DNA from: a virus
Virus record (IMG/VR): IMGVR_UViG_3300032311_001182
Location: 1 to 37,650 of that record
Direction: 5' to 3' (one strand)
DNA length: 37,650 nucleotides
The position numbers and the translations under genes were made by a program. Positions 935-27,130 of the stretch are shown one piece after another; position 1 is the stretch's first letter; each line of letters starts with the position of its first letter. Under the pieces are notes generated by a model. That model saw only the letters and a program-made list of their open reading frames with translations. It did not search any database and was not told the DNA's origin.

Positions 935-2275
935 TTAGTTAAATATTTCGTTCACGGAACCGAGGAAAGAACCGTTCCATTTAGATTTCTTGATTGTTAC
1001 TTCCTCTGATCGGCCAAGATCAGAAGACTTCTTAATTGCAGTCTCGGACTCTACTGCATCGACACGCTTTTGTACACCATCAATCGTGCTCTTGATATCA
1101 TTTACAGCGCTTGAAAGCACTGTGTGTTGTTCTGCCAACTCTGAAATTCTAGCGTCTACGCTCTTGCTGAAAGCTTCAACAGTCTCTTGGATTGTTGTTA
1201 CTTGTGCTGCATTAACTTCTGATGCCTTATTTAGAGTTTCTGAGAAAAAGCCCTTTAGGTCGCCTAACATCTTTGCAAAATCAGGTTCTTCAACCTTATC
1301 TTCTGATACGTCGGCTACTTTTTCCAGAGTCTCGGCAGCTGTGTCTTCCGCTACTGCATCTTCTGCAGGAGCATCTTCGACTGCAGGCGCTGCATCTGCT
1401 GCAACTTCTGTTGTCTCTTCTACGGTTGCTTCTGGTGCTGCTTCAACAGCTGCATCTTCAACAACTACGTTTTCTGTATTTTCTGACACTTCATTACCTC
1501 CTTCTGCGTTTGCCTGTTTTGCTATTTGTGTATCAGGCAACGTAAATCTTGAATGCTTATATGCATCAAGAATCTTATCAATCTCTTTTGACTTGTTAAC
1601 ATCTGAGCTTTCAACCCAACCAATTAGTTGTGCTGGCTTACCAGATACTGGTGAGTCATATGTTTTTTCTGTTGAGATAAAAACAGAATTGCTTTCTTCG
1701 CAATAAAAAATATTTTCTGTTACTACTTCAGTTGCAATTCCTTTAAATACTAATTGGCCATTTACCTTTTGAATAGAAAGAACATTGCAAAGTTCATTTG
1801 CTGGAGAATCTACAATTGATAATTCAATCAAATCGTAATCCTTAATAAATCTTACTGTCTTGCCATTTGCCTTATTAACTTCGTTATCTGACTCATTAAT
1901 CTTTCCACCAATTGAGAATCCAGAAAGAGTGCCGTCTAAAACTTTTTCCCATGTGTCCTGTGCGCCCTTTGAAATGTAAGCATCTACATACACGCCATTA
2001 TAAAACTCTTTTGACTTTGGATCATAGTATGTTTCTGGCTTGAATGAAACAACTTTGCCAACTGCTGTTGAGTTGTGCATTTCACGAAGATTTCCTCTAA
2101 AGCCTTCAAAAGCTTTTAGGCTTGCTTCTGCTGTGACAACGTCTCCTGTTTGATCAACATTATCTAATGTAGCGAATCCTGACACCGTTCTTTTTTCACG
2201 GTTAACCTTTGTAAAGGGAACCGATAGACTGATGTTGTCGCCATGACTGGACCACAAAGACTTTTCAATATTCAT
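935..2275 (-). CDS. Prohead protease (XkdF/S78-like) with C-terminal scaffold-like region
   Basis: 446 residues. Residues about 1-175 look like an XkdF/peptidase S78 prohead protease: MHNSTAVGK holds the likely catalytic His67, LSGFSIGG holds Ser118 or Ser121, and LIELSIVDSPANELC holds the likely third residue Glu151. Such proteases cleave scaffold and capsid arms inside the prohead. Residues about 258-335 are a low-complexity Ala/Glu/Val stretch, and about 335-415 are predicted coiled coil with heptad-like hydrophobics. A basic tail (VTIKKSKWNGSFLGSVNEIF) follows. The C-terminal half probably acts as the scaffold, because no separate scaffold gene lies between portal and capsid. The start has no ribosome site; a TAAAAT box lies 7 nt upstream. 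Function is secure; the scaffold role is inference. Confidence 0.87.
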   Translation of the reverse strand: MNIEKSLWSSHGDNISLSVPFTKVNREKRTVSGFATLDNVDQTGDVVTAEASLKAFEGFRGNLREMHNSTAVGKVVSFKPETYYDPKSKEFYNGVYVDAYISKGAQDTWEKVLDGTLSGFSIGGKINESDNEVNKANGKTVRFIKDYDLIELSIVDSPANELCNVLSIQKVNGQLVFKGIATEVVTENIFYCEESNSVFISTEKTYDSPVSGKPAQLIGWVESSDVNKSKEIDKILDAYKHSRFTLPDTQIAKQANAEGGNEVSENTENVVVEDAAVEAAPEATVEETTEVAADAAPAVEDAPAEDAVAEDTAAETLEKVADVSEDKVEEPDFAKMLGDLKGFFSETLNKASEVNAAQVTTIQETVEAFSKSVDARISELAEQHTVLSSAVNDIKSTIDGVQKRVDAVESETAIKKSSDLGRSEEVTIKKSKWNGSFLGSVNEIFN

Positions 2276-2328
2276 ATGCTTAATTTTAGCGACTTATAGA
2301 TAAAAAGGCAAATAACAGTTGAGTGGGG

Positions 2329-3900
2329 TTAGTCAACTTGTCTGCCGTCGCCCTTAGCATTTCTTCCTTCTCCCGAAACGTCTGGGGAAGTTGCTTGGCG
2401 ATCTTGAGACCTTTGTCTGGTATTCCCAGCTTGGGCTCTAATTTCTGCGGCTTGGGCTTGAAGGTCTACAACCTTATCTCCGCCATCAATTGGAATCATG
2501 CCCTTTCTAATTCTAACTTCATTAGGGGTAATTACTTGCATACGCAAATATCTTTCATCAATCTTAGACTGTGTATCCTCATCGGTTAAAGTTAGCTCAT
2601 TAAACTTTAATACCAGGGCATCTGTTTTTTCATCAAATATTTTATTTATTTTCTTTTCAAGAATCATTTGTGCTGGACGACAGACTTGCTCTTTAAAGGT
2701 CTTATCTGCATCACGAGCAACTGCTAAATTAACTCCCTCTGGAGTTCCAATTTTATTGATTGGCACACGGTGAGCAAGTAATATTTCATCTCGGTTAGAC
2801 TTACGATATTTTTCAAATGAGCCTTCTTGGTTACCCGCCTCAATTGGCTCCATCTTAAATTCAACCTTTGAGTCTGGGGTATCTGAAGGAAGTGGCACAT
2901 AAAGAGATCTATGGTTTTTACCCTTTAGCCCTACCTGGAAAACCTCAAGCAGTTTTATTTCTGATTCTGGAGAAAGATTTGCTCCTTTTACTGTAATAAT
3001 ATATCTTGGAACCGCTTTGTTTTCAAAGTAGTCTAGGTTATACTTTCCAGAAAATTCGTTACCAGCAAGAGCAACCTGGGCTGCTACAATATCTGGCAAG
3101 CCATAGTAGTTGTTCATAGGGGTATACTTCTTTAAATGAATAATTTCATTTGGACGATCTTCTTGTCCCGCAATTGGATTTTCTGTTTCTGTGTCGCCAA
3201 AATTATTAAAGAACACTGCCTTACCATAAAGCAATTGAACAAAGCCATCTCTGAGTCTACGCACACGCATTGTCTTTGCTGGGATATGTCCGATGTATCC
3301 AATGTTACCGCCTGTGGTTCTGCCTATTTCAATATAACCATTACCTGTTGCTTCTAAGTCTGTGTACACTTTAATTAGTGTTTGAGTAAAGGTATCCTCT
3401 TCATTTGTTGTGTCTAGCCAACCGTGAAGATCTTGACGCAATTTATTAAGCTTCTTACGTGCTCTCTCCAATTGCTTCTCATCTGTTATTGAGTCAAATG
3501 CATCATTTGTCTTTTTTGTTTCAATAAAGTCATAGCCTAGCCCAACAATGTTCGCAACTTTTGCATTTATTGCTGCATAGTTGTATGTTGAAACTTCGTA
3601 AATCTTTGAAAGGTATTCTTGATTGTATGGTGGCTCAATAAGGTCAAACATAGCGTATCCGCTAATAGCCTGAGCAAGAAGATTTTGTTGTGTTCCTACG
3701 CCTTCAATTCCTGTGAATGCTTTTGAGAACTCTCTATTGATCTTTCTTTTAAATGCTGATCCTAGACCTCTTACTTTTCTTAAGTCATCTCCGCTTATTG
3801 CAAATGGGTCACTTGTTGGCTGCTCTTTTTTAAAAGAAAACCAGTCGGCTGTGTTAGATATATCAATTGTATTTCCGTCTTCTTCTTGAACCTCAATCAT
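2329..3900 (-). CDS. Phage portal protein (PBSX-type)
   Basis: 523 residues, normal length for a portal, which forms the dodecameric ring at the capsid vertex through which DNA passes. Typical pieces are seen in order: YNYAAINAKVANIVGLGYDF near residue 100, an insertion with Lys/Arg-rich helix, DLEATGNGYIEIGR, IGHIPAKTMRVRR, PNEIIHLKKYTPMNNYYGLPD, the segment FENKAVPRYIITVKGANLS, and the C-terminal helices ILLAHRVPINKIG and AVARDADKTFKEQVCRPAQM. The last about 45 residues are polar and Gln/Arg-rich, probably disordered. The start overlaps the stop of the upstream small gene as ATGA, so translation is coupled. The terminase large subunit that usually precedes a portal is not here. Confidence 0.93.
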   Translation of the reverse strand: MIEVQEEDGNTIDISNTADWFSFKKEQPTSDPFAISGDDLRKVRGLGSAFKRKINREFSKAFTGIEGVGTQQNLLAQAISGYAMFDLIEPPYNQEYLSKIYEVSTYNYAAINAKVANIVGLGYDFIETKKTNDAFDSITDEKQLERARKKLNKLRQDLHGWLDTTNEEDTFTQTLIKVYTDLEATGNGYIEIGRTTGGNIGYIGHIPAKTMRVRRLRDGFVQLLYGKAVFFNNFGDTETENPIAGQEDRPNEIIHLKKYTPMNNYYGLPDIVAAQVALAGNEFSGKYNLDYFENKAVPRYIITVKGANLSPESEIKLLEVFQVGLKGKNHRSLYVPLPSDTPDSKVEFKMEPIEAGNQEGSFEKYRKSNRDEILLAHRVPINKIGTPEGVNLAVARDADKTFKEQVCRPAQMILEKKINKIFDEKTDALVLKFNELTLTDEDTQSKIDERYLRMQVITPNEVRIRKGMIPIDGGDKVVDLQAQAAEIRAQAGNTRQRSQDRQATSPDVSGEGRNAKGDGRQVD

Positions 3901-6122: not shown

Positions 6123-6144
6123 TATTTAACCCCCAATCATATTA

Positions 6145-6342
6145 TTAAAGTGCTGCTATTTGTATTTGCTTTTCAGCAATTGCTGACGTCAAAGATGCTA
6201 CTGTTTCTGATACTGGTTCTGCTTTTGCATTTTCTGCAATAAGCTGTACCTCTAATGAATACATTGCATATTCTAGGTTTCTAATTTCAGACTGTTTGAT
6301 TGCAGCTTTTTCATCATCTGTTAGTATTGTATATGTTGCCAT
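6145..6342 (-). CDS. Small helical protein, function unknown
   Basis: 65 residues, almost entirely predicted helix, with TDDEKAAIKQSEIRNLEYAM followed by a second helix ending IAEKQIQIAAL. A strong AAGGAGG site sits before the ATG. It lies between the Ig-like adhesin with its small partner and the LamG protein. It resembles the next upstream gene in size and helical nature and may be a second copy of the same idea, a small chaperone or linker, but the sequences are too short to prove a relationship. No family recognised. Confidence 0.65.
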   Translation of the reverse strand: MATYTILTDDEKAAIKQSEIRNLEYAMYSLEVQLIAENAKAEPVSETVASLTSAIAEKQIQIAAL

Positions 6343-6355
6343 TTTATCCTCCTTG

Positions 6356-6565
6356 TTAGTTTAATGAAGCTTTTAAATTGAGTATTGCCTCAATTTGCAA
6401 CATTAATTCTGATTTTTCTTTATTTAGTAATTGTATAGCATTATCCTGTATTACGCCATCTACTGTGTTTTTCTCTATCATTATATCAACCTTATTAAGC
6501 CTAGAATTAAACCATTCAAGGTGGTCTTCAATAACTCTAATTTTATCTTGATTAGTAATTGTCAT
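6356..6565 (-). CDS. Small coiled-coil protein coupled to the Ig-like adhesin
   Basis: 69 residues from the ATG at 6565 (MTITNQDKIRVIEDHLEWFN). This ATG overlaps the stop of the preceding 524-residue gene as ATGA, so I prefer it to the GTG at 6580 that would add five residues. The protein is predicted to be two amphipathic helices with a short turn (VDGVIQDNAI), ending EAILNLKASLN. Size, charge and coupling suggest a small chaperone or trimerisation helper for the neighbouring adhesin. That role is inference from position. Confidence 0.7.
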   Translation of the reverse strand: MTITNQDKIRVIEDHLEWFNSRLNKVDIMIEKNTVDGVIQDNAIQLLNKEKSELMLQIEAILNLKASLN

Positions 6566-9361: not shown

Positions 9362-10429
9362 TTAAATTATACCACTTTCACGGTTCTGAGCACTGTGATA
9401 AAAGCCCAAATTGTCATGTAGCCTTTGATCATCGCATAAGGAAACAGCTATTTCTCCGTGCTTTGAGGCATCCTCATAATTACCTAAATTATAGTTAGCT
9501 AGAGCTAGCAAGTCATGTGGCTTCCAGCCCCAAGCTTCTGATTCACAGAAATATCCTAAAAACTTTTCTTTTATATTTAAGGCAAGCTCTGAATACTCTT
9601 TTACTTTATCCCAATCTTGAATCTCATAAAAATATTGAGCAAGGTCTACAAATGGTTCTCTTCTTTCTGGGCATTCTGCAATTGCTAATCTTAGCCAGTA
9701 TTCTTTATCATTTGGCTCACACTTTGCAATGTAGCGCATAGATTCACATCTTTCTGGTTTCCAGAATGCTGAAGGTAATGACAAATGTCTTTTAAACTCA
9801 ATTGCTGCTTCTTCGTACCTGGCATAATAGAAAAGCTCTCTTGCGTAATAATGGGCACACCTATCGCTTGTAGGGTCTTCTTGTGCCGCCATTGCTAACA
9901 ATGGAAGATATTGCCCTCTTGATTTGTTATTATCTGGGTAGTGGTAGATCTTAATATTAACATCTTGTCTTACTTCGTCTATTCCATAAAATGCAACAGA
10001 TTCGTGAATTGGATACTTCCACCTATGTCCGTGTCTTGAGTGCATTCTTAATGCATCAAATTCAACACCTGGTTTTCCATTTTCATCAAATGAAGTAACC
10101 AGTCTATGTATCGGTCTTGTTACTGAAGAAGGAAGTTTTTCTAATTCTTCTCTCCAGCCTTCTGATAATACTTCATCCATATCTAAAGATATACAATAGT
10201 CTATATCGGAAGGAATTAATGCAAGGGCTGCATTTCTAGCATCGTCAAATCGCCAGGGGGCCACGGATATAGAATGAACTTCTATTCCTAGATGTAATGC
10301 TAATTCTTTTGTTTTATCTGTAGAGCCTGTATCTGCAATTAGTAAATAGTCAGCATCTTTTGCAGACTCATACCAACGCTTAACAAACTGCTCTTCATTT
10401 AAAGCAATTGTATATACTGCTATTTTCAT
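9362..10429 (-). CDS. Family 2 glycosyltransferase with C-terminal TPR-like repeats
   Basis: 355 residues. The N-terminal half is a GT-A glycosyltransferase: [20 protein letters not shown], then [10 protein letters not shown] (residues 32-41, nucleotide-binding Asp33), [13 protein letters not shown], and the metal-binding DMDE motif at 83-86. IHES at 141-144 is a usual acceptor-side element of this group. Residues about 185-350 are helical and TPR-like ([48 protein letters not shown]). No membrane segment, so it acts in the cytosol. It lies between two collagen-like Thr-rich fibre genes, which makes those fibres the obvious candidate substrates. Family is secure; sugar and acceptor are unknown. 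Confidence 0.87.
9366..9374 (-). promoter_or_regulatory. Extended -10 box of a possible leaderless promoter for the collagen-like fibre
   Basis: The minus strand reads TGG then a perfect TATAAT, ending 6 nt before the ATG at 9359. The gene has no Shine-Dalgarno sequence, and the preceding glycosyltransferase stop lies inside the same few bases. The spacing fits transcription beginning at the start codon. It would allow separate expression of the fibre. Confidence 0.45.
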
Positions 10430-10450: not shown

Positions 10451-12652
10451 TTACCAGGTGTTTATTGGAATTCTTTTCCAAGTGTTTGTAGCTGTGCAAA
10501 CATAAATATAATTTGAATCCCATTTTACATCTCCCGCTGTTCCAGTGGTTGTTGATGTTGCTACTGTGCCGTTTGTAATCCCAGATGGGCCTGTTGGGCC
10601 TGTTGGGCCTGTTGGGCCTCCTGAAGGACCTGTTGGTCCCGTTGGGCCTGTATTGCCTTGTAAACCTGCACCAGTTGCACCTGTAGCTCCAGTAGCTCCA
10701 GTAGCACCTGTTGAGCCTGTTACTCCTGTTGGTCCTGTAGGTCCTTGAATACTTGATCCATTTGCACCTGTAGCACCTGTTGCACCTGTAGCACCTGTTG
10801 CACCTACTCCTGTTGGGCCAGTAGAACCTGTAGGTCCTTGAATACTTCCAACATTAGTCCAAGCAGATCCAGTCCAAACATATAAAGCACCATTGATTAA
10901 ATATCCATCGCCAAGGGTTCCTGATGGTCGTGCTGATACAAGAGCAGCTTCATTTGGATATGAACCTAATATTTTTACTGATGTTCCATCTGCTCCAGCT
11001 GTTCCTGTTGCTCCTGTTGCTCCTGTTGCACCTGTTGCACCTGTTGGGCCCGCTACTGTGCTGTTTGCGCCTGTTGCGCCTGTAGCACCTGTGGGACCTG
11101 TTGGTCCTTGCTTAAGAGTAAAGTTTAAAATAAGATCTGTAGATGTTCCAGAATTTGTAATTAAAGGAGAACCAGTTGGTCCAGTAGAAGCAATTGTTCC
11201 TAAAGTTATTGTTGTTGGGCCAGCTGGGCCTGTTGGACCAGTTATTCCCTGCTTTAAAACAAAATCAAGTAGTGCTGCAGTTGTTGTTCCAACATTTGTA
11301 ACAGAAGGAATTCCAGTTGGTCCAGTAGAAGTTACTCCTCCTACTGCAACAGTAGCCGCATTTCCAGTTGGTCCAGTTGCTCCAATTGGTCCTTGTGGCA
11401 AAACAAAATCAAAAACTCCAGCTGAGCCTGATCCAGAATTTGTTATAGATGCTGTGCCCGTTGGTCCTGTAGTAGTAACGGTTCCGATAGCTATTGTTGC
11501 TGGGCCTGTTGCACCTGTAGGACCTTGGAATTGTCCTGCATCTAGCCACTGTGTTCCGCTCCAAACATATAAATGCAAATCGCTTAACGCAATCCATGCA
11601 TCACCTGATGTATTTCCAGAAGATGGCAAGGCTGCAACATTTGCTTTTGTGCCTTTAATATTAATTGATCTTCCATCTGCTCCAGTAGGACCTGTCCCGC
11701 CAGTAGCACCTGTGGCACCAGTTGGGCCTGTAGCACCTGTGGAACCTTTATAAGAACCAGCATTTGACCATGCAGTTCCATTCCAAACATACATCGTTTG
11801 TGTATCTGTTACTAAATAAGTTGCACCTAAAAATGAATTTGATGGCAATGCTCCTACATTTGCAACTGTTCCTTGAAGTTGCAAGCTTGTTCCAGTTGCG
11901 CCAGTTGATCCAGTTGGGCCAGTTGGGCCAGCTACACCAGTTGCACCAGTAGGACCAGCTGCTCCATTAACACCTATTGTTCCATTAATTCCTGGATTTC
12001 CAGCAACAGCAAATACCCAATCTGAATATGTTCCTGTTCCATTTCTAGTGTCTACATCTACAGATATACTTACATTTTTTACAACTTGTGTAATAACACC
12101 TTCAACATATGTAGTTAAAGCTAGTGGGTTTATAACACGAACACGTTGTCCTGCTGTATAAGCACCACTGTTATTTACATAAAATACTTTTGAGCCAGTC
12201 GCTACTGAGTTTGTTGTTATTGATGTTACATCGGCATAACCTGCTCCTGAAGCTCCTGTGGTTCCGCCTGTTGATCCTCCACCAGATAGAGTTCCTGAAA
12301 GGTCTACTCCTGATATTGTTAATGAGTAGCAGTTTGGTGTTGTTGTAACTGCTGCAATAGACTCTCCAGCATTTAAAATTAATGAATGTTCTAGCTTGAG
12401 TGTTGTATTATTTGAAACAGTAACATTTCCATACAAAGTGTATGGGTCTAGGCTTGATCTATTTACATTATATAGGTTTATTACTTGATCGCCGTTTTCG
12501 CCTAATAAAAATATGCTAAATGGTAAAGTAGATCCGCTAAAATTTGTTACCGTAAACTCTTTAATAATTATAGTTGATACAGCTGTATATAATTTAGTAG
12601 GAGAGGCTGGTATTAATGAAGGTCCTGAAAATCTAATTGGAGCATATGACAT
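10451..12652 (-). CDS. Long collagen-like tail fibre with intercalated W-motif modules
   Basis: 733 residues. Residues 1-120 form a beta domain ([20 protein letters not shown] ... ISGVDLSG) like the two small proteins at 16811-17131 and 32378-32707. Then come G-x-y blocks, mostly GPTGATG, separated by modules of two kinds: a 50-residue one ([39 protein letters not shown]) seen about three times, and a 35-residue one ([20 protein letters not shown] ending LDFVLKQG) seen three times. The C-terminus is [20 protein letters not shown], a tip motif found on many phage fibres. Its overall plan suggests a triple-helical shaft with knobs. It is the gene just upstream of the glycosyltransferase. Confidence 0.85.
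10590..11750. repeat. Tandem codon repeats encoding collagen triplets in the long fibre
   Basis: Blocks at about 10590-10850, 10990-11110 and 11690-11750 repeat 9-base units that encode GPT, GAT and GPS triplets. Units near 10760-10810 and 11000-11050 are almost identical to units in the fibre gene at 8145-9359. The two genes are therefore likely to exchange repeats. The blocks give long proline/valine-rich false frames on the plus strand. Confidence 0.65.
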
Positions 12653-12666
12653 ACTTTAATTCCCCC

Positions 12667-13383
12667 TTAGACTATAGACCACTTAGATATTAGATCTTTT
12701 TCAACAGTTTCGTATTCTGAAAATTGTAAAGCTCTATTATAAATTAAAAATTCTCCAATTTTAAAGTTTCCATAAGTTGAAATATATCTTCCAATTGCTT
12801 GTCCAGTCATTGAAGCTACTGATCCACCTGTTACAGCACGTGAAACTTCCACTCTATTTCTTCTTACAGTTCTTTGATTATTTGATGAATCATAAACAAT
12901 TGTATAAATTTCTGTTGTACCTGATGGAACAACTGTTATAATAGATCCTTGGTCATCATTATAGAATCCAGTTCTATGTGTATTTGATGTTAAATCTCCT
13001 GCATAAAAATTTGTTCTTGTTCCTGTATTTGTTCCGCCAAAGATCCATGTATTACTATTTGCTGGATTTGATGCAACATAAATTACTGTAAATGATCTTC
13101 CTGCAATATACGCAAGTGTTTGATCTGAAAATGTCATAAAATCATCTACGCCGTCAAACTGAATGGCACCAAGTCCGCCTAGGCCTGTTGCTTGAAATAA
13201 TGGTTTATTTGCCTGTGTTGCTTGAACCATATGTCGGCCTGCACCTGACTTATCATTCCAAGCGGAAGCAAAATTGCTTCCATCTCTAATTACTGTAGCT
13301 GGAAGTGAAGCATCTAAATGAAGCTGTAGGCCTAATGTTGTAAATCTAGCTCTACGAAAATTTGAACGCTGATTAGGTAGCAA
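12667..13383 (-). CDS. Concanavalin/LamG-like lectin protein with TTG start
   Basis: 238 residues. The domain runs from LGLQLHLDASLPATVI through SAWNDKSGAGRHMVQ, IQFDGVDDFMTF, RSFTVIYVAS, STYGNFKIGEFLIYNRAL to EKDLISKWSIV, a full concanavalin-like sandwich of the kind used by phage lectins. The first codon is TTG at 13383, directly after the TAA of the preceding gene and in the same frame. No ATG occurs for about 55 codons. A GGAG site lies 8 nt before the TTG, inside the end of the upstream gene. Start by re-initiation is likely; readthrough of the single TAA would fuse the two proteins. Confidence 0.75.
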   Translation of the reverse strand: MLPNQRSNFRRARFTTLGLQLHLDASLPATVIRDGSNFASAWNDKSGAGRHMVQATQANKPLFQATGLGGLGAIQFDGVDDFMTFSDQTLAYIAGRSFTVIYVASNPANSNTWIFGGTNTGTRTNFYAGDLTSNTHRTGFYNDDQGSIITVVPSGTTEIYTIVYDSSNNQRTVRRNRVEVSRAVTGGSVASMTGQAIGRYISTYGNFKIGEFLIYNRALQFSEYETVEKDLISKWSIV

Positions 13384-13827
13384 TTAATTTTCTCCTGTTC
13401 CACCATAAACTACAGGCTTTTCTGGCCAAGTAATCTCTGATACATTTGAATATTCTTTTAACAAGTTTAGCTTTTCTCTGTACTTAACCCAAGCTTGCTT
13501 ATCCTTTGCAGATAAATCTGATTTAGTTTCTAGTCCCTCTGTAGATATTAATTCAAAATCGATATGCGCCAGCAAAATATCTTTTTGATCATCTGCAGAA
13601 ATTGACTCTACCTTAACATTATATACTTTTTTGCTTTTAATATATGGCTCACACGAAACTAACTTTTCAGTGTTTGAGTTATATTCTAAATCTGTAATAA
13701 CTGTATAAACATCGTTATCTTTTAAAAAATCTCCATAGTCGCCACTAGCAGGAAATGAAGTATTTGGAAACAATACTGTTATTTCACCAACATTGATGAT
13801 TCTATTATCCTTAACTATTGCGTACAT
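13384..13827 (-). CDS. Tail-fibre assembly chaperone-like protein
   Basis: 147 residues. The N-terminus YAIVKDNRIINVGEITVLFP and the C-terminus KQAWVKYREKLNLLKEYSNV followed by WPEKP match the pattern of small phage tail assembly chaperones, whose C-terminal helix ends in a short Trp-Pro motif. Such proteins help fold or trimerise the neighbouring fibre and usually lie right next to it. Here it sits between the 145-residue tip-like protein and the lectin protein, and is in frame with the latter across one stop codon. The relation to the chaperone at 17503-17910 is by pattern only. Confidence 0.6.
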   Translation of the reverse strand: MYAIVKDNRIINVGEITVLFPNTSFPASGDYGDFLKDNDVYTVITDLEYNSNTEKLVSCEPYIKSKKVYNVKVESISADDQKDILLAHIDFELISTEGLETKSDLSAKDKQAWVKYREKLNLLKEYSNVSEITWPEKPVVYGGTGEN

Positions 13828-13845: not shown

Positions 13846-14283
13846 TTATACGTATAAATCAGCGAATGCATATCCGCCATATATAGTTGTTCCGCCATCT
13901 CTTGTGTAAAAGTTTAATAGCGTTGTATTAGTTGATAATAGTGGTGCTACGTTTGCAGCTCCTCCACCGTCCCACTTAATTGCTCCTGGCCATGTGATTG
14001 TATAAGATCCACCAGCTTTAAGCTCTACTTGCCAGAATGCTGCCTTGTTGGTAGCTGGGATTCCTGTGAATGCTACTGTCATGTTTCCGTTAGCAAGAAT
14101 TCTAAAAACTCCTGCTGATGATACATCACATGTTGCAGTTCCTCCTGCATTAATTGTTCCTCTGTTGTTGTATTCAACTGGAATATTAAAATATGTATAA
14201 CCTTGACCATTAATTGGTGCTTGAAGGTATGTATATGTCCACAAAGATGGTGTAACAGCTTGTGGCGTCATTGATACTGGCAT
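13846..14283 (-). CDS. Small tail protein with fibre-tip beta domain
   Basis: 145 residues. The C-terminal half (FWQVELKAGGSYTITWPGAI, then KWDGG, LLNFYTRDGGTTIYGGYAFA) is a beta domain often found at the ends of phage fibre proteins. The N-terminal half (YTYFNIPVEYNNRGTINAGG) is also beta-rich. No shaft or collagen part is present, so it is either a free-standing tip or a decoration protein. It follows the glycine-rich adhesin and precedes the chaperone-like gene. Exact role unknown. Confidence 0.65.
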   Translation of the reverse strand: MPVSMTPQAVTPSLWTYTYLQAPINGQGYTYFNIPVEYNNRGTINAGGTATCDVSSAGVFRILANGNMTVAFTGIPATNKAAFWQVELKAGGSYTITWPGAIKWDGGGAANVAPLLSTNTTLLNFYTRDGGTTIYGGYAFADLYV

Positions 14284-14310: not shown

Positions 14311-15246
14311 TTAAGCTTTTACCCAATAGGTAATTTTGCATATTCCTGAACCACCAGTATTTGATCCGCCTCCGCCACCGCCTGAACCTGAGTTTGGTTG
14401 TGCGTTAGCGCCAGCAGTTCCAGTATAGTCTCCGTAGCCATTTCCTCCGCCACATGACCCTGGGCCACCTGATCCTCTTGCTGCTCCTCCGCCACCACCA
14501 GCGAGTCCGTAAAGTCCAGAACCACCTCTGCCTCCGTGTGATCTATATCCTGAGTCATTTGAGTTAGCAGAACCTGGTCCGCCACCTGATGAGCCTTCTG
14601 AAGAGCTTCTTGATCCGCCAAAATATCCAGCATATCCTCCAGAGTTTGGGTACTGTGTATCAGCTTCTTGTCCAGCTCCACCTGCACCTCCGCCACCTCC
14701 GCCACCGCCCCATGAGTTCTGCCATTCTCCTTGACCGCCTCCACCTGAGCCAATTCCTGTTCTATTGTTAGCCCCTGGTCCATTTGAACCAGATTGACCG
14801 TTACCTTGTGTTGAACCTCCACCATATGCAACCATGTAAAATGGTTGACCTGAAGTTCCAAATGTTGAGTTTCCACCTTGTGCATTACATGTACCACCTG
14901 ATGCAATACCAATTGAAATTGATTGTCCTATTGGAACAGAAGAAACATCAAGAGTTCTTCTTAAAAGTTGTCCTGCTCCGCCACCGCCGTGATCAGTTGA
15001 ACCAGCTGTGCATCCGCCTCCACCGCCGCCGCCTACTAGTGTTACGTTTATTTGTGGTGCGCTATTTGCTGGACGTGTCCAAACACCACCGCTTAAAATT
15101 GATACTTCATAGGCATTATAAAAACCTGAAAGGTTTGCTGCAATTAATGGAATTGCAATAGATGTTGAAAGTGTTGTTGCTGAAGATTGAATTGCTGCAT
15201 CTAAGCCTGGTACATAAATTTGATTAATTGTTCCGTATGTTGCCAT
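14311..15246 (-). CDS. Glycine-rich adhesin
   Basis: 311 residues. The N-terminal tag is INQIYVPGLDAAIQSSA, also seen in the 330-residue and 316-residue proteins. Then a strand pair (SGGVWTRPANSAPQINVTLV) leads into a Gly-rich domain with GGGGGGG runs, the conserved GAGQLLRRTLDVSSVPIGQS and FYMVAYGGGS pieces, and the end GICKITYWVKA. This is the Gly_rich-type domain of phage tail proteins, reminiscent of polyglycine-loop adhesins such as gp38 of T-even-like phages, which bind outer surface receptors. The start overlaps the preceding stop as TAATG. Variable Gly/Ser loops are the likely binding surface. Confidence 0.78.
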   Translation of the reverse strand: MATYGTINQIYVPGLDAAIQSSATTLSTSIAIPLIAANLSGFYNAYEVSILSGGVWTRPANSAPQINVTLVGGGGGGGCTAGSTDHGGGGAGQLLRRTLDVSSVPIGQSISIGIASGGTCNAQGGNSTFGTSGQPFYMVAYGGGSTQGNGQSGSNGPGANNRTGIGSGGGGQGEWQNSWGGGGGGGGAGGAGQEADTQYPNSGGYAGYFGGSRSSSEGSSGGGPGSANSNDSGYRSHGGRGGSGLYGLAGGGGGAARGSGGPGSCGGGNGYGDYTGTAGANAQPNSGSGGGGGGSNTGGSGICKITYWVKA

Positions 15247-15491
15247 TATGATTTTACCTCGATTTCAAGAACATTTTCTTCTACAACATGCTCTGGTTTT
15301 GGTCTTACTGATTCTGGTGCTTTAAACTTATTATCTTCTAATCTCCACATAATTGCTGGTTGTGGATTGTAATCTGTAATATCTATACGATCTAGTCCAG
15401 AGAAATCTGGGTGAGATTCAATAAAATCTTCTTCAGCAATAATTACATTTCCAATAATATTATCTACTAGCAGTGCCCAAGTTCTTGACAT
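15246..15491 (-). CDS. Small tail-associated protein, possible chaperone
   Basis: 81 residues: WALLVDNIIGNVIIAEEDFI, then an acidic middle, IMWRLEDNKFKAPESV and a charged tail. It lies between the two glycine-rich adhesins and is joined by TAATG on both sides. Together with the 101-residue gene just upstream it has the plan of small fibre-associated proteins: a short strand pair about a value or note, a W-Y-D or W-R-L-x-D motif, then a Pro-rich end. The 89-residue protein at 27137-27406 has the same plan. Function by analogy only. Confidence 0.6.
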   Translation of the reverse strand: MSRTWALLVDNIIGNVIIAEEDFIESHPDFSGLDRIDITDYNPQPAIMWRLEDNKFKAPESVRPKPEHVVEENVLEIEVKS

Positions 15492-15796
15492 TATTGTTGA
15501 CCCCCTACCATTGGAGCGGACTCTGGTTGTTCAACCTCAGAGGCTTCTACTGGCTCTGTAATAGGAATAAGATTTTCTACAACAACATTTGAAATAAATG
15601 GTGTAGGCTTATTCCATACTTCTGTTTCTCTATTGTAAGTCCATTGAGGACCTGGCTTATCGTCATAAGCCCAGTCAGTATAATCAAAGTGCAAAAGATC
15701 TTTTAAGTCATCATTTGCAGCAATTGCTTCAGGCCCTGTTAGATGCAGTATGTTATGTACTGTTCCATCTTCATTAATAAATACGTAGTCTCTCAT
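15491..15796 (-). CDS. Small tail-associated protein, possible chaperone
   Basis: 101 residues: YVFINEDGTVHNILHLTGPE, then FDYTDWAYDDKPGPQWTYNR and a Pro/Glu/Val-rich end. It lies directly downstream of the 330-residue glycine-rich adhesin and overlaps the next small gene by TAATG. The strand-plus-W-Y motif plan is shared with the 81-residue gene next to it. The pair could be dedicated helpers for the glycine-rich adhesins on either side. No catalytic motif. Confidence 0.6.
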   Translation of the reverse strand: MRDYVFINEDGTVHNILHLTGPEAIAANDDLKDLLHFDYTDWAYDDKPGPQWTYNRETEVWNKPTPFISNVVVENLIPITEPVEASEVEQPESAPMVGGQQ

Positions 15797-15798
15797 AG

Positions 15799-16791
15799 TT
15801 ATGCTTTAACGTAGTATGTAATAATAGCTACGCCAGAACCTCCCTTTTGACCATTTCCACCTGTGTGATTATTTCCGCCTCCGCCTGAACCAGTTCCATC
15901 CATGCCCTGTCCACCTGAGTTATCAGTTGTTTGTGATCCTCCTGCGCCACCACCACAAGATCCTCCTCCGCCTGCTGATCCTCCTCCGCCGCCTCCGCCT
16001 GCAATTCCGTATTCACCGTCTCCGCCCATTCCTCCAACGCCAATCCATGAAGTCCAGTTGTGAGATGCTCCTTGTGCACCACCAGATGCTCCAGGTCCAT
16101 ATCCAAAACCTCCCATGCGACCAGATGATCCAACTCCATTTGTAGTTGTTGTACATCTTGCTGGTCCGCCTGCAGTTTTTGCTCCTCCGCCTCCACCGCC
16201 ACCGCCGTAAGACTGTCCAAAGTTAGATCCACCACCGCCACCAGATCCTCCTCCGTTTTGGTTGTTGTAACCTTGACCCATGCTTCCGCTGTTTCCATTG
16301 TTTCCATTGTTTTCTGGGTATCCGCCTCCGCCACCACCGTATGCAATTAAATAAAATGAGTTTCCATTAACGCCGAATGAAGAGTTACCTCCATTATTAC
16401 CATTTGAATTTCCACCAACTGCTGGTCCACCTGCACCAATTGTAATTGGAATAGTTGATCCAATTGCAACTGAAGAAATATCTAACCATCTCTCAACAAG
16501 TTGTCCTGCTCCTCCGCCACCAGATCCGCTATGGCTCCATGAAACACCACAACCACCCGCTCCTCCGCCACCAACAAGAACTAACTTAATAACAGGACCA
16601 GAGTTAGCTGGACGTGTCCAGTTTCCAGAAGAATAAATTCTTTCTTCTAGTGGCATATACATTGAGCTTACTCCACCTGCTGCAATTGCTTGTGCGGTAA
16701 TACCAGTTTGTAGACCTGCTGTTACGGCAGCATCAATTGTTGTTGTAAGTCCTGGTAAATATATAGAGGACGTGCTATTAGATGATGGCAT
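15799..16791 (-). CDS. Glycine-rich adhesin, paralogue of the 311-residue protein
   Basis: 330 residues. Same plan as the 311-residue protein: N-terminal tag SSIYLPGLTTTIDAAVTA, strand pair SSGNWTRPANSGPVIKLVLV, Gly-rich loops with the conserved GAGQLVERWLDISSVAIGST and FYLIAYGGGGGG pieces, and the end GVAIITYYVKA. Most changes lie in the Gly/Ser/Asn loops between the fixed strands, which fits an adhesin whose loops define the target. A ribosome site AAAGGAG precedes the ATG. Duplication of this gene with its small partners created the 14311-16791 block. Confidence 0.78.
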   Translation of the reverse strand: MPSSNSTSSIYLPGLTTTIDAAVTAGLQTGITAQAIAAGGVSSMYMPLEERIYSSGNWTRPANSGPVIKLVLVGGGGAGGCGVSWSHSGSGGGGAGQLVERWLDISSVAIGSTIPITIGAGGPAVGGNSNGNNGGNSSFGVNGNSFYLIAYGGGGGGYPENNGNNGNSGSMGQGYNNQNGGGSGGGGGSNFGQSYGGGGGGGGAKTAGGPARCTTTTNGVGSSGRMGGFGYGPGASGGAQGASHNWTSWIGVGGMGGDGEYGIAGGGGGGGSAGGGGSCGGGAGGSQTTDNSGGQGMDGTGSGGGGNNHTGGNGQKGGSGVAIITYYVKA

Positions 16792-26392: not shown

Positions 26393-27130
26393 TTAGTTAT
26401 AGTTCTTACGGTTCCAATACTTCTTCTTGTAGTATCCAACTACTGATCTGTCTATATTGCCATCAAAGAAAGCTCTTGCTTGAAGAACTTTGCTTACAGA
26501 CATTACCCAGCTATCTCTTTTGTATGGGAATACATGTGCAAAAGGAGTTCCTTTTGGTATTACCCCGTTAAATCCTTTTTGAAGAAAAAAGGGTATGTTC
26601 CCTGGTGGAACCCAACCATCACTATCAATAATTCCAGAAGTAGTAGTAAATGGCAAATCAAATCTATTTAAAGGATGTGTTATAAGTATTGAATATCCTC
26701 TTGGAACTTGCATTCCCCATTTCCCAGACCAAGTAAAATGATTTTGTAAATGTCCTGATGGCCTAGGTATTGTTGATCCGCTTGTTGATGTTCTTTCACC
26801 AACCATCATACTTTTTATTTGATTTTCTTTTATTTTGTGAGCATGATCATGCTGTTTACCTTTTAAAATAAAAGACCCATCTGGCTGTATATCACCATCT
26901 TCTATGGTTATAGTCTTACCCTTTTGAGTTATTTTTAAATCTTCCCACGTTGTTAAAACATATCCTGAAAGCATTGCATCTAAAAACGGTACACATGTTT
27001 TTAAAGCAGCCATTCCTTTATCATCATACATTTCGCCATCTTTATACCACTGAGGTATATGATTTTTTATTGGAGTTGGCGCAAGTATGTTTTCAAAACC
27101 CTTATCTGGAACAAATTTAATTTTTTTCAA
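26393..27130 (-). CDS. Conserved phage protein, IPxWYK/THPxNR family, function unknown
   Basis: 245 residues. It has the pieces of a protein widely found in T4-like marine and other phages: APTPIKNHIPQWYKDGEM, ALKTCVPFLDAMLSGYVLTT, WEDLKI, HFTWSGKWGMQVPRGYSILI, THPLNRFDLPFTTTSGIIDS, GNIPFFLQKGFNGVIPKGTP, FAHVFPYKRDSWVM. Beta strands dominate the centre, perhaps a cupin-like double-stranded helix, with His and Asp residues but no clear active site. It sits among appendage genes with three other small non-fibre genes upstream. I recognise the family pattern (DUF6065-like) but no function. Confidence 0.7.
   Translation of the reverse strand: MKKIKFVPDKGFENILAPTPIKNHIPQWYKDGEMYDDKGMAALKTCVPFLDAMLSGYVLTTWEDLKITQKGKTITIEDGDIQPDGSFILKGKQHDHAHKIKENQIKSMMVGERTSTSGSTIPRPSGHLQNHFTWSGKWGMQVPRGYSILITHPLNRFDLPFTTTSGIIDSDGWVPPGNIPFFLQKGFNGVIPKGTPFAHVFPYKRDSWVMSVSKVLQARAFFDGNIDRSVVGYYKKKYWNRKNYN

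Follow-up and report, generated by a model that had tools for sequence, protein, structure and literature searches.

Termination-reinitiation couples the start of translation at a downstream gene to termination at the gene before it. Reporters in E. coli and Haloferax show that such coupling requires the two genes to overlap or to lie very close together and is nearly lost at ~20 nt; the coupled class extends from -8 to +10 nt (PMC10666635). Among tail fibre assembly chaperones, that of Pam3 is numbered gp25, its fibre gp24, and has a beta N-terminal half and a helical C-terminal part (PMC9608196). Here we describe the junction between a chaperone-like gene and a lectin-fold gene in a viral DNA stretch of 37,650 nt, the whole of which we call the window. 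The arrangement of this junction is ordinary, with one modest oddity in how seldom its TTG turned into ATG.

Both genes lie on the minus strand. The upstream gene (13384..13827) encodes a tail-fibre-assembly (chaperone)-like protein of 147 aa, named from profile matches and a structural model. It runs from an ATG to a TAA stop (13384..13386) that abuts, in the same frame, the TTG (13381..13383) of a 238-aa ORF (12667..13383). The product of this second ORF is predicted, from its model, its fold matches and phrog_10356, to be a concanavalin-A-like (LamG-type) jelly-roll protein and a probable tail adhesin. We assign the TTG as its start codon from a comparison of relatives, a codon test and a tree. 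An SD-like AGGAG (13392..13396), recognised by its sequence and its pairing with the anti-SD, lies inside the chaperone-like gene, in its final codons, and ends 8 nt ahead of the TTG (AGGAG-AAAATTAA-TTG). A first-pass annotation of the same DNA had these coordinates and the same-frame TAA/TTG layout right, had correctly placed the end of a GGAG 8 nt from the TTG, and had given the proper length for a hypothetical fusion (147 + 1 + 238 = 386 residues). Its statement that no ATG occurs for about 55 codons holds for the long ATG-free stretch, but the figure is slightly high, since the earliest in-frame ATG of the lectin-fold ORF is codon 52.

The window's gene list gives 40 adjacent pairs, and the chaperone/lectin pair alone has a gap of exactly 0 nt. 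Overlaps of 1 or 4 nt are found in 11/40 pairs, so tight junctions are routine in the window. TTG starts are given for 3 of the 41 listed genes, in a list whose starts are mostly mechanical ORF starts. No RNA structure that might signal readthrough or reinitiation was seen at the junction: the 100-nt fold was no better than those of shuffled sequences (z 0.28; 122/200 shuffles at least as stable).

When viral contigs were searched at the protein level, 35 loci came up that are 69-95% identical and form, with the window, clade I; two of them end inside the lectin gene and 33 have a readable junction. In all 33, TAA and TTG abut directly and the chaperone and lectin frames are in register. The layout is therefore no product of chance, sequencing or assembly. 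The first-pass annotation had suggested looking at the TAA in close relatives and had allowed that it might be a sequencing or assembly error; the TAA is kept throughout, and the error can be set aside. The 33 readable loci and the window together hold 24 distinct lectin genes.

A profile search returned 57 loci: 34 of clade I (all already found), 22 of a second clade (clade II) and one outlier (L117). By tblastn, identity in clade II is 61-63%, and six aligned members show 59-61% along their full length; L117, at 55%, is the most distant relative. At 22/22 clade II loci, the chaperone gene ends in TAG and overlaps the lectin gene by 8 nt in a different frame, and the lectin starts with TTG. 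L117 has an 11-nt overlap, also with a change of frame, and an ATG start. The lectin N-termini align across the clades (MLPNQRS.., MLSNN.., MLNNQRS..; clade II differs by one codon), and on this alignment the start position is homologous in all three. An ATG start in relatives, which the first-pass annotation had named as counting against its reading, occurs at 1 of the 56 loci with a readable start, namely L117. A fused chaperone-lectin frame is found in 0/56 readable relatives, all 56 having an in-frame stop at or near the start. A lectin-profile search of 26 virus records places the lectin in open frames of 237-250 codons. The two genes are out of frame at 23/56 readable loci (L117 and every clade II locus) and in frame at the 33 of clade I; in the out-of-frame phages, the lectin is therefore made without readthrough. 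In a genome collection, none of 22 pattern stretches was confirmed to be a relative, and the translated stretches following three weak matches to the chaperone query (L061-L063) held no lectin.

A leucine codon within a readthrough protein could switch silently to five other codons. The first codon of the lectin gene is TTG in 24/24 distinct clade I genes and in 13/13 of clade II, counts that, like those of the junctions, are not independent events because the sequences are related. In clade I, nine other always-leucine columns use two to six codons each, and TTG makes up 27 of 388 internal leucine codons. The invariance of the TTG thus fits a start codon. The codon test is informative in clade I only, since in clade II a single codon is also used at 3/13 other invariant-leucine columns. 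Among frozen columns of other residues in clade I, one codon is used at 7/12 arginine, 1/9 serine and 1/19 glycine columns; over the whole tree, 4/10 arginine and 2/6 phenylalanine columns show no change. The tree built on 38 distinct genes spans 3.96 substitutions per site; along it, the first codon shows a single change, between TTG and the ATG of the outgroup, and three leucine columns that are invariant in all 38 genes change 2, 7 and 19 times. The 24 four-fold sites on this tree change 5.6 times on average, and two of them never do.

An SD-like site is present at 16/16 distinct junctions. Its purine core varies (AGGAG, GAGGA, GAGGG, AGGGG, GGAGGAG, GAGGAGG, GGAGG or GAGG), one of these standing at each of the 16. 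Against a background of 127 in-frame windows of upstream coding sequence from the same loci, between 0 and 8 background windows equal the junction in anti-SD pairing (mean 1.7% over the 16 distinct junctions), and at the window's own junction 0/127 pair as well. These pairings use the universal anti-SD, which may not be that of the host.

The reading that we favour, at a probability of about 0.93, is that of a separate lectin whose synthesis begins at the TTG. Ribosomes would translate the chaperone-like gene and terminate at its TAA; lectin synthesis would start at the abutting TTG, placed by the SD-like site in the last chaperone codons; and two separate proteins would be made from adjoining genes of the tail-fibre gene block. 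Of the two options left by the first-pass annotation, (re-)initiation at the TTG gains from the invariant TTG, the SD-like sites, the out-of-frame TTG of 22 relatives and the ATG of L117, and readthrough loses, the genes being out of frame in two of the three clades. We also think it fairly probable that lectin initiation is coupled to upstream termination (termination-reinitiation), because stop and start touch in clade I, and the genes share 8 nt in clade II and 11 nt in L117. Short overlaps or a very short gap on one strand (0 nt in clade I, 8-nt overlap in clade II, 11-nt overlap in L117) keep the junction distance between 0 and -11 nt across three clades despite changed sequence and frame.

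Programmed or leaky readthrough of the TAA would instead yield a 386-aa chaperone-lectin fusion, as the functional product or as a minor functional form. The A1 protein of Qbeta is a readthrough product, and the registered frames of the window and its 33 readable clade I relatives would permit one here. A 755-aa structural protein of Erythrobacter phage ZS04 contains a related lectin domain, which shows that the domain can belong to a longer chain, though not to one with this chaperone. Plain readthrough would, however, miss the lectin frame at 22/22 clade II loci and in L117. In clade I, it would leave the leucine free to change synonymously, yet the codon is unchanged and does not evolve as an ordinary coding codon. 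The SD-like site would be needless. The chaperone stop is TAA in 24/24 distinct clade I sequences, against mixed lectin stops in the same genes (TAA 20, TAG 3, TGA 1), and a TAA followed by T is a strong termination signal. We consider functional readthrough highly improbable; the comparison of relatives indicates that a chaperone-lectin fusion is no conserved product. Just as improbable is a lectin start at the ATG of codon 52 with the stretch before it left untranslated. TTG is a weaker start than ATG, which speaks for the later codon, but residues 9-51 show silent changes under a conserved protein sequence, initiation at codon 52 would delete the predicted strands 19-24, 31-33 and 38-43, and L117 carries its ATG at the place of the TTG.

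A variant of the favoured reading keeps the same start and does without coupling, the SD-like site alone driving initiation at the TTG. Its presence at all 16 distinct junctions is consistent with this, and so is one relative (L028) in which the chaperone-like gene lacks 82 nt and its frame is broken upstream of an intact lectin gene, which speaks against strict coupling. Coupling may be dispensable in L028, or L028 may be misassembled; the 82-nt loss may be a real deletion or an assembly collapse. Uncoupled initiation would not account for a junction held at 0 to -11 nt in three clades, and the coupled class of -8 to +10 nt (PMC10666635) takes in clades I and II, the 11-nt overlap of L117 falling outside it. 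We regard initiation at the TTG without coupling as rather unlikely. As a separate observation on L028 (5639-6000, on a contig shared with L059), its chaperone gene is identical to that of L025 apart from the gap and two mismatches flanking it. Searches of the literature for TTG starts with tail-fibre chaperones and for readthrough with tail-fibre assembly gave nothing on this junction in the titles and abstract starts of the matches listed.

The identification of the 147-aa protein as a predicted tail fibre assembly chaperone is weakly to moderately supported, and the chaperone-like label of the first-pass annotation stands to that extent. The window protein matches phrog_188 (tail fiber assembly) at E 4.2e-5, as do 17 of 22 aligned family members at E<=1e-3 (alignment A3, of 22 chosen chaperones). 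With Caudo_TAP (PF02413), it scores 18 bits, under the curated Pfam gathering cut-off of 22.1; E<=0.01 is reached by 16/22 aligned members, with 1.7e-4 the best value. In the structural model (pLDDT 90.3), the N-terminal half is beta and two long helices follow at the C-terminus; Foldseek found no match to the model at E<=0.001. In a fold search of the PDB, mainly the C-terminal half was matched, weakly, among the matches listed (2kz6, Z 6.5, 64 residues), and Pam3 gp25 was not among the best 50. A sequence search of the PDB with the chaperone profile gave one match, again 2kz6 (E 6.6e-4), and named phages gave no match to the protein at E<=0.01. If the gp24-gp25 order of Pam3 holds here, the chaperone would have as its client the product of the upstream gene (13846-14283) rather than the lectin.

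The 238-aa protein is modelled, at a pLDDT of only 72.9 (pTM 0.78), as a concanavalin A-like jelly roll that carries a helix at its C-terminus. The alignment used for the model (A2) holds 22 chosen lectins; in it, the rows of clade II open one codon ahead of the TTG. Foldseek returned 421 matches at E<=0.001 (best E 2.6e-9), and the best VIA-align match is the tailspike chain 9vyh_p of cyanopodophage Pan3 (Z 19.6, 221 residues, rmsd 4.6). The lectin of the first-pass annotation is thereby upheld as a fold only: on the model, the protein is of concanavalin A-like/LamG fold and a putative lectin. It matches phrog_10356 (virion structural protein) at E 6.8e-23 and is probably a virion or tail adhesin. 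Pfam Laminin_G_3 (PF13385) matched 2/22 aligned family members (best E 5.1e-6) and not the window protein, and the lectin profile found no PDB sequence at E<=0.1. Eleven records of named phages hold distant lectin matches (<60% identity). The literature search on the Pan3 tailspike gave nothing related among the matches listed.

Directly upstream of the chaperone-like gene lies a gene for a tail-fibre-like protein of 145 aa (13846..14283, minus strand), and directly downstream of the lectin is one for a collagen-repeat tail-fibre-like protein of 733 aa, named from family matches (10451..12652, minus strand). In all three clades, as far as the loci extend, the 145-aa protein comes first, then the chaperone (only partly matched in L028) and then the lectin. 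A match of 116-117 residues to the collagen-repeat protein directly follows the lectin in L117 and at 13/22 clade II loci; at the other nine, the best such match is elsewhere or not among the matches listed, in a comparison that took the best match per gene and locus only. Farther upstream, two glycine-rich adhesin-tip-like proteins enclose two small genes (14311-15246, 15246-15491, 15491-15796, 15799-16791). The N-termini of the small genes' products (15246-15491 and 15491-15796) resemble that of the chaperone-like protein by eye, and neither has a Pfam or PHROGs match. A glycosyltransferase-like gene, named by eye, lies between two collagen-repeat genes (9362-10429), and relatives of it are found downstream of the lectin at many clade I loci. 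In the otherwise dense block, 6123-6561 is a 439-nt gap without a listed gene. In the region 935-3900, the portal is closest to those of large Streptomyces phages (56-58%, among the best 15 of 284 matches), as is the capsid maturation protease (43-48%, among the best 15 of 137). By these head genes, among the matches listed, the phage is akin to actinophages. Streptomyces-phage-like head genes thus sit in an AT-rich group of uncultured phages.

The TTG is found in 37/38 distinct lectin genes over ~4 substitutions per site and two junction layouts. At the lectin start it hardly ever became ATG, although one base change suffices. A second gene of the window with a TTG start (26393-27130; phrog_7084, unknown function) was compared at the aligned first codon in 13 of 30 loci: ATG stands in 9/13, TTG in 1/13 (79% identity) and no start codon in 3/13. 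Seven of the nine ATG loci are at 64-66% identity, L123 and L140 come from one record, and some loci are second copies. In several records, the family is present in at least two diverged copies. The near fixation of TTG in the lectin, against ATG in 9/13 for the second gene, hints at a weak start kept for dose, a hint drawn from one gene against one, in related sequences with some second copies. From the weak codon we infer a lower lectin dose. Selection may keep the TTG so that the lectin stays sub-stoichiometric to the chaperone-like protein, a suggestion that we offer tentatively and think somewhat improbable. Were selection acting on the weak start, it would offer a simple means of tuning the chaperone-to-adhesin ratio.

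With the gene start fixed and a fusion argued against, the lectin of this uncultured phage group can be annotated and expressed from the proper codon. The test itself is small and reusable: an invariant TTG amid drifting leucine codons marks a start codon. Compared with known systems, the junction resembles termination-reinitiation pairs in its abutting genes or 8-11-nt overlaps, in the SD-like site within the upstream gene and in the probable membership of both genes in one functional module; it differs in its 0-nt spacing and TTG, against the 4-nt and 1-nt overlaps commonest in such pairs (PMC10666635), and in that the coupling is one we infer. The 147-aa protein is like the tail fibre assembly chaperones (Caudo_TAP, phrog_188 and Pam3 gp25) in being small, in lying among tail-fibre genes, in its beta N-terminal half and helical C-terminal part, and in a C-terminal profile match; it departs from them in its sub-cut-off Pfam score and in an N-terminal half without a good PDB fold match. 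With the Pan3 tailspike chain, the lectin-fold protein shares the jelly-roll fold at only 14% identity over the 221 aligned residues. Cyanophage KBS-S-2A encodes a related domain in a 253-aa gene that stands by itself, starts with ATG and overlaps the preceding gene by 4 nt. Its product shares the phrog_10356 match and a similar free-standing gene length with the window lectin, but it is 35% identical over 45% of the query and the gene preceding it is endonuclease-like and not a chaperone.
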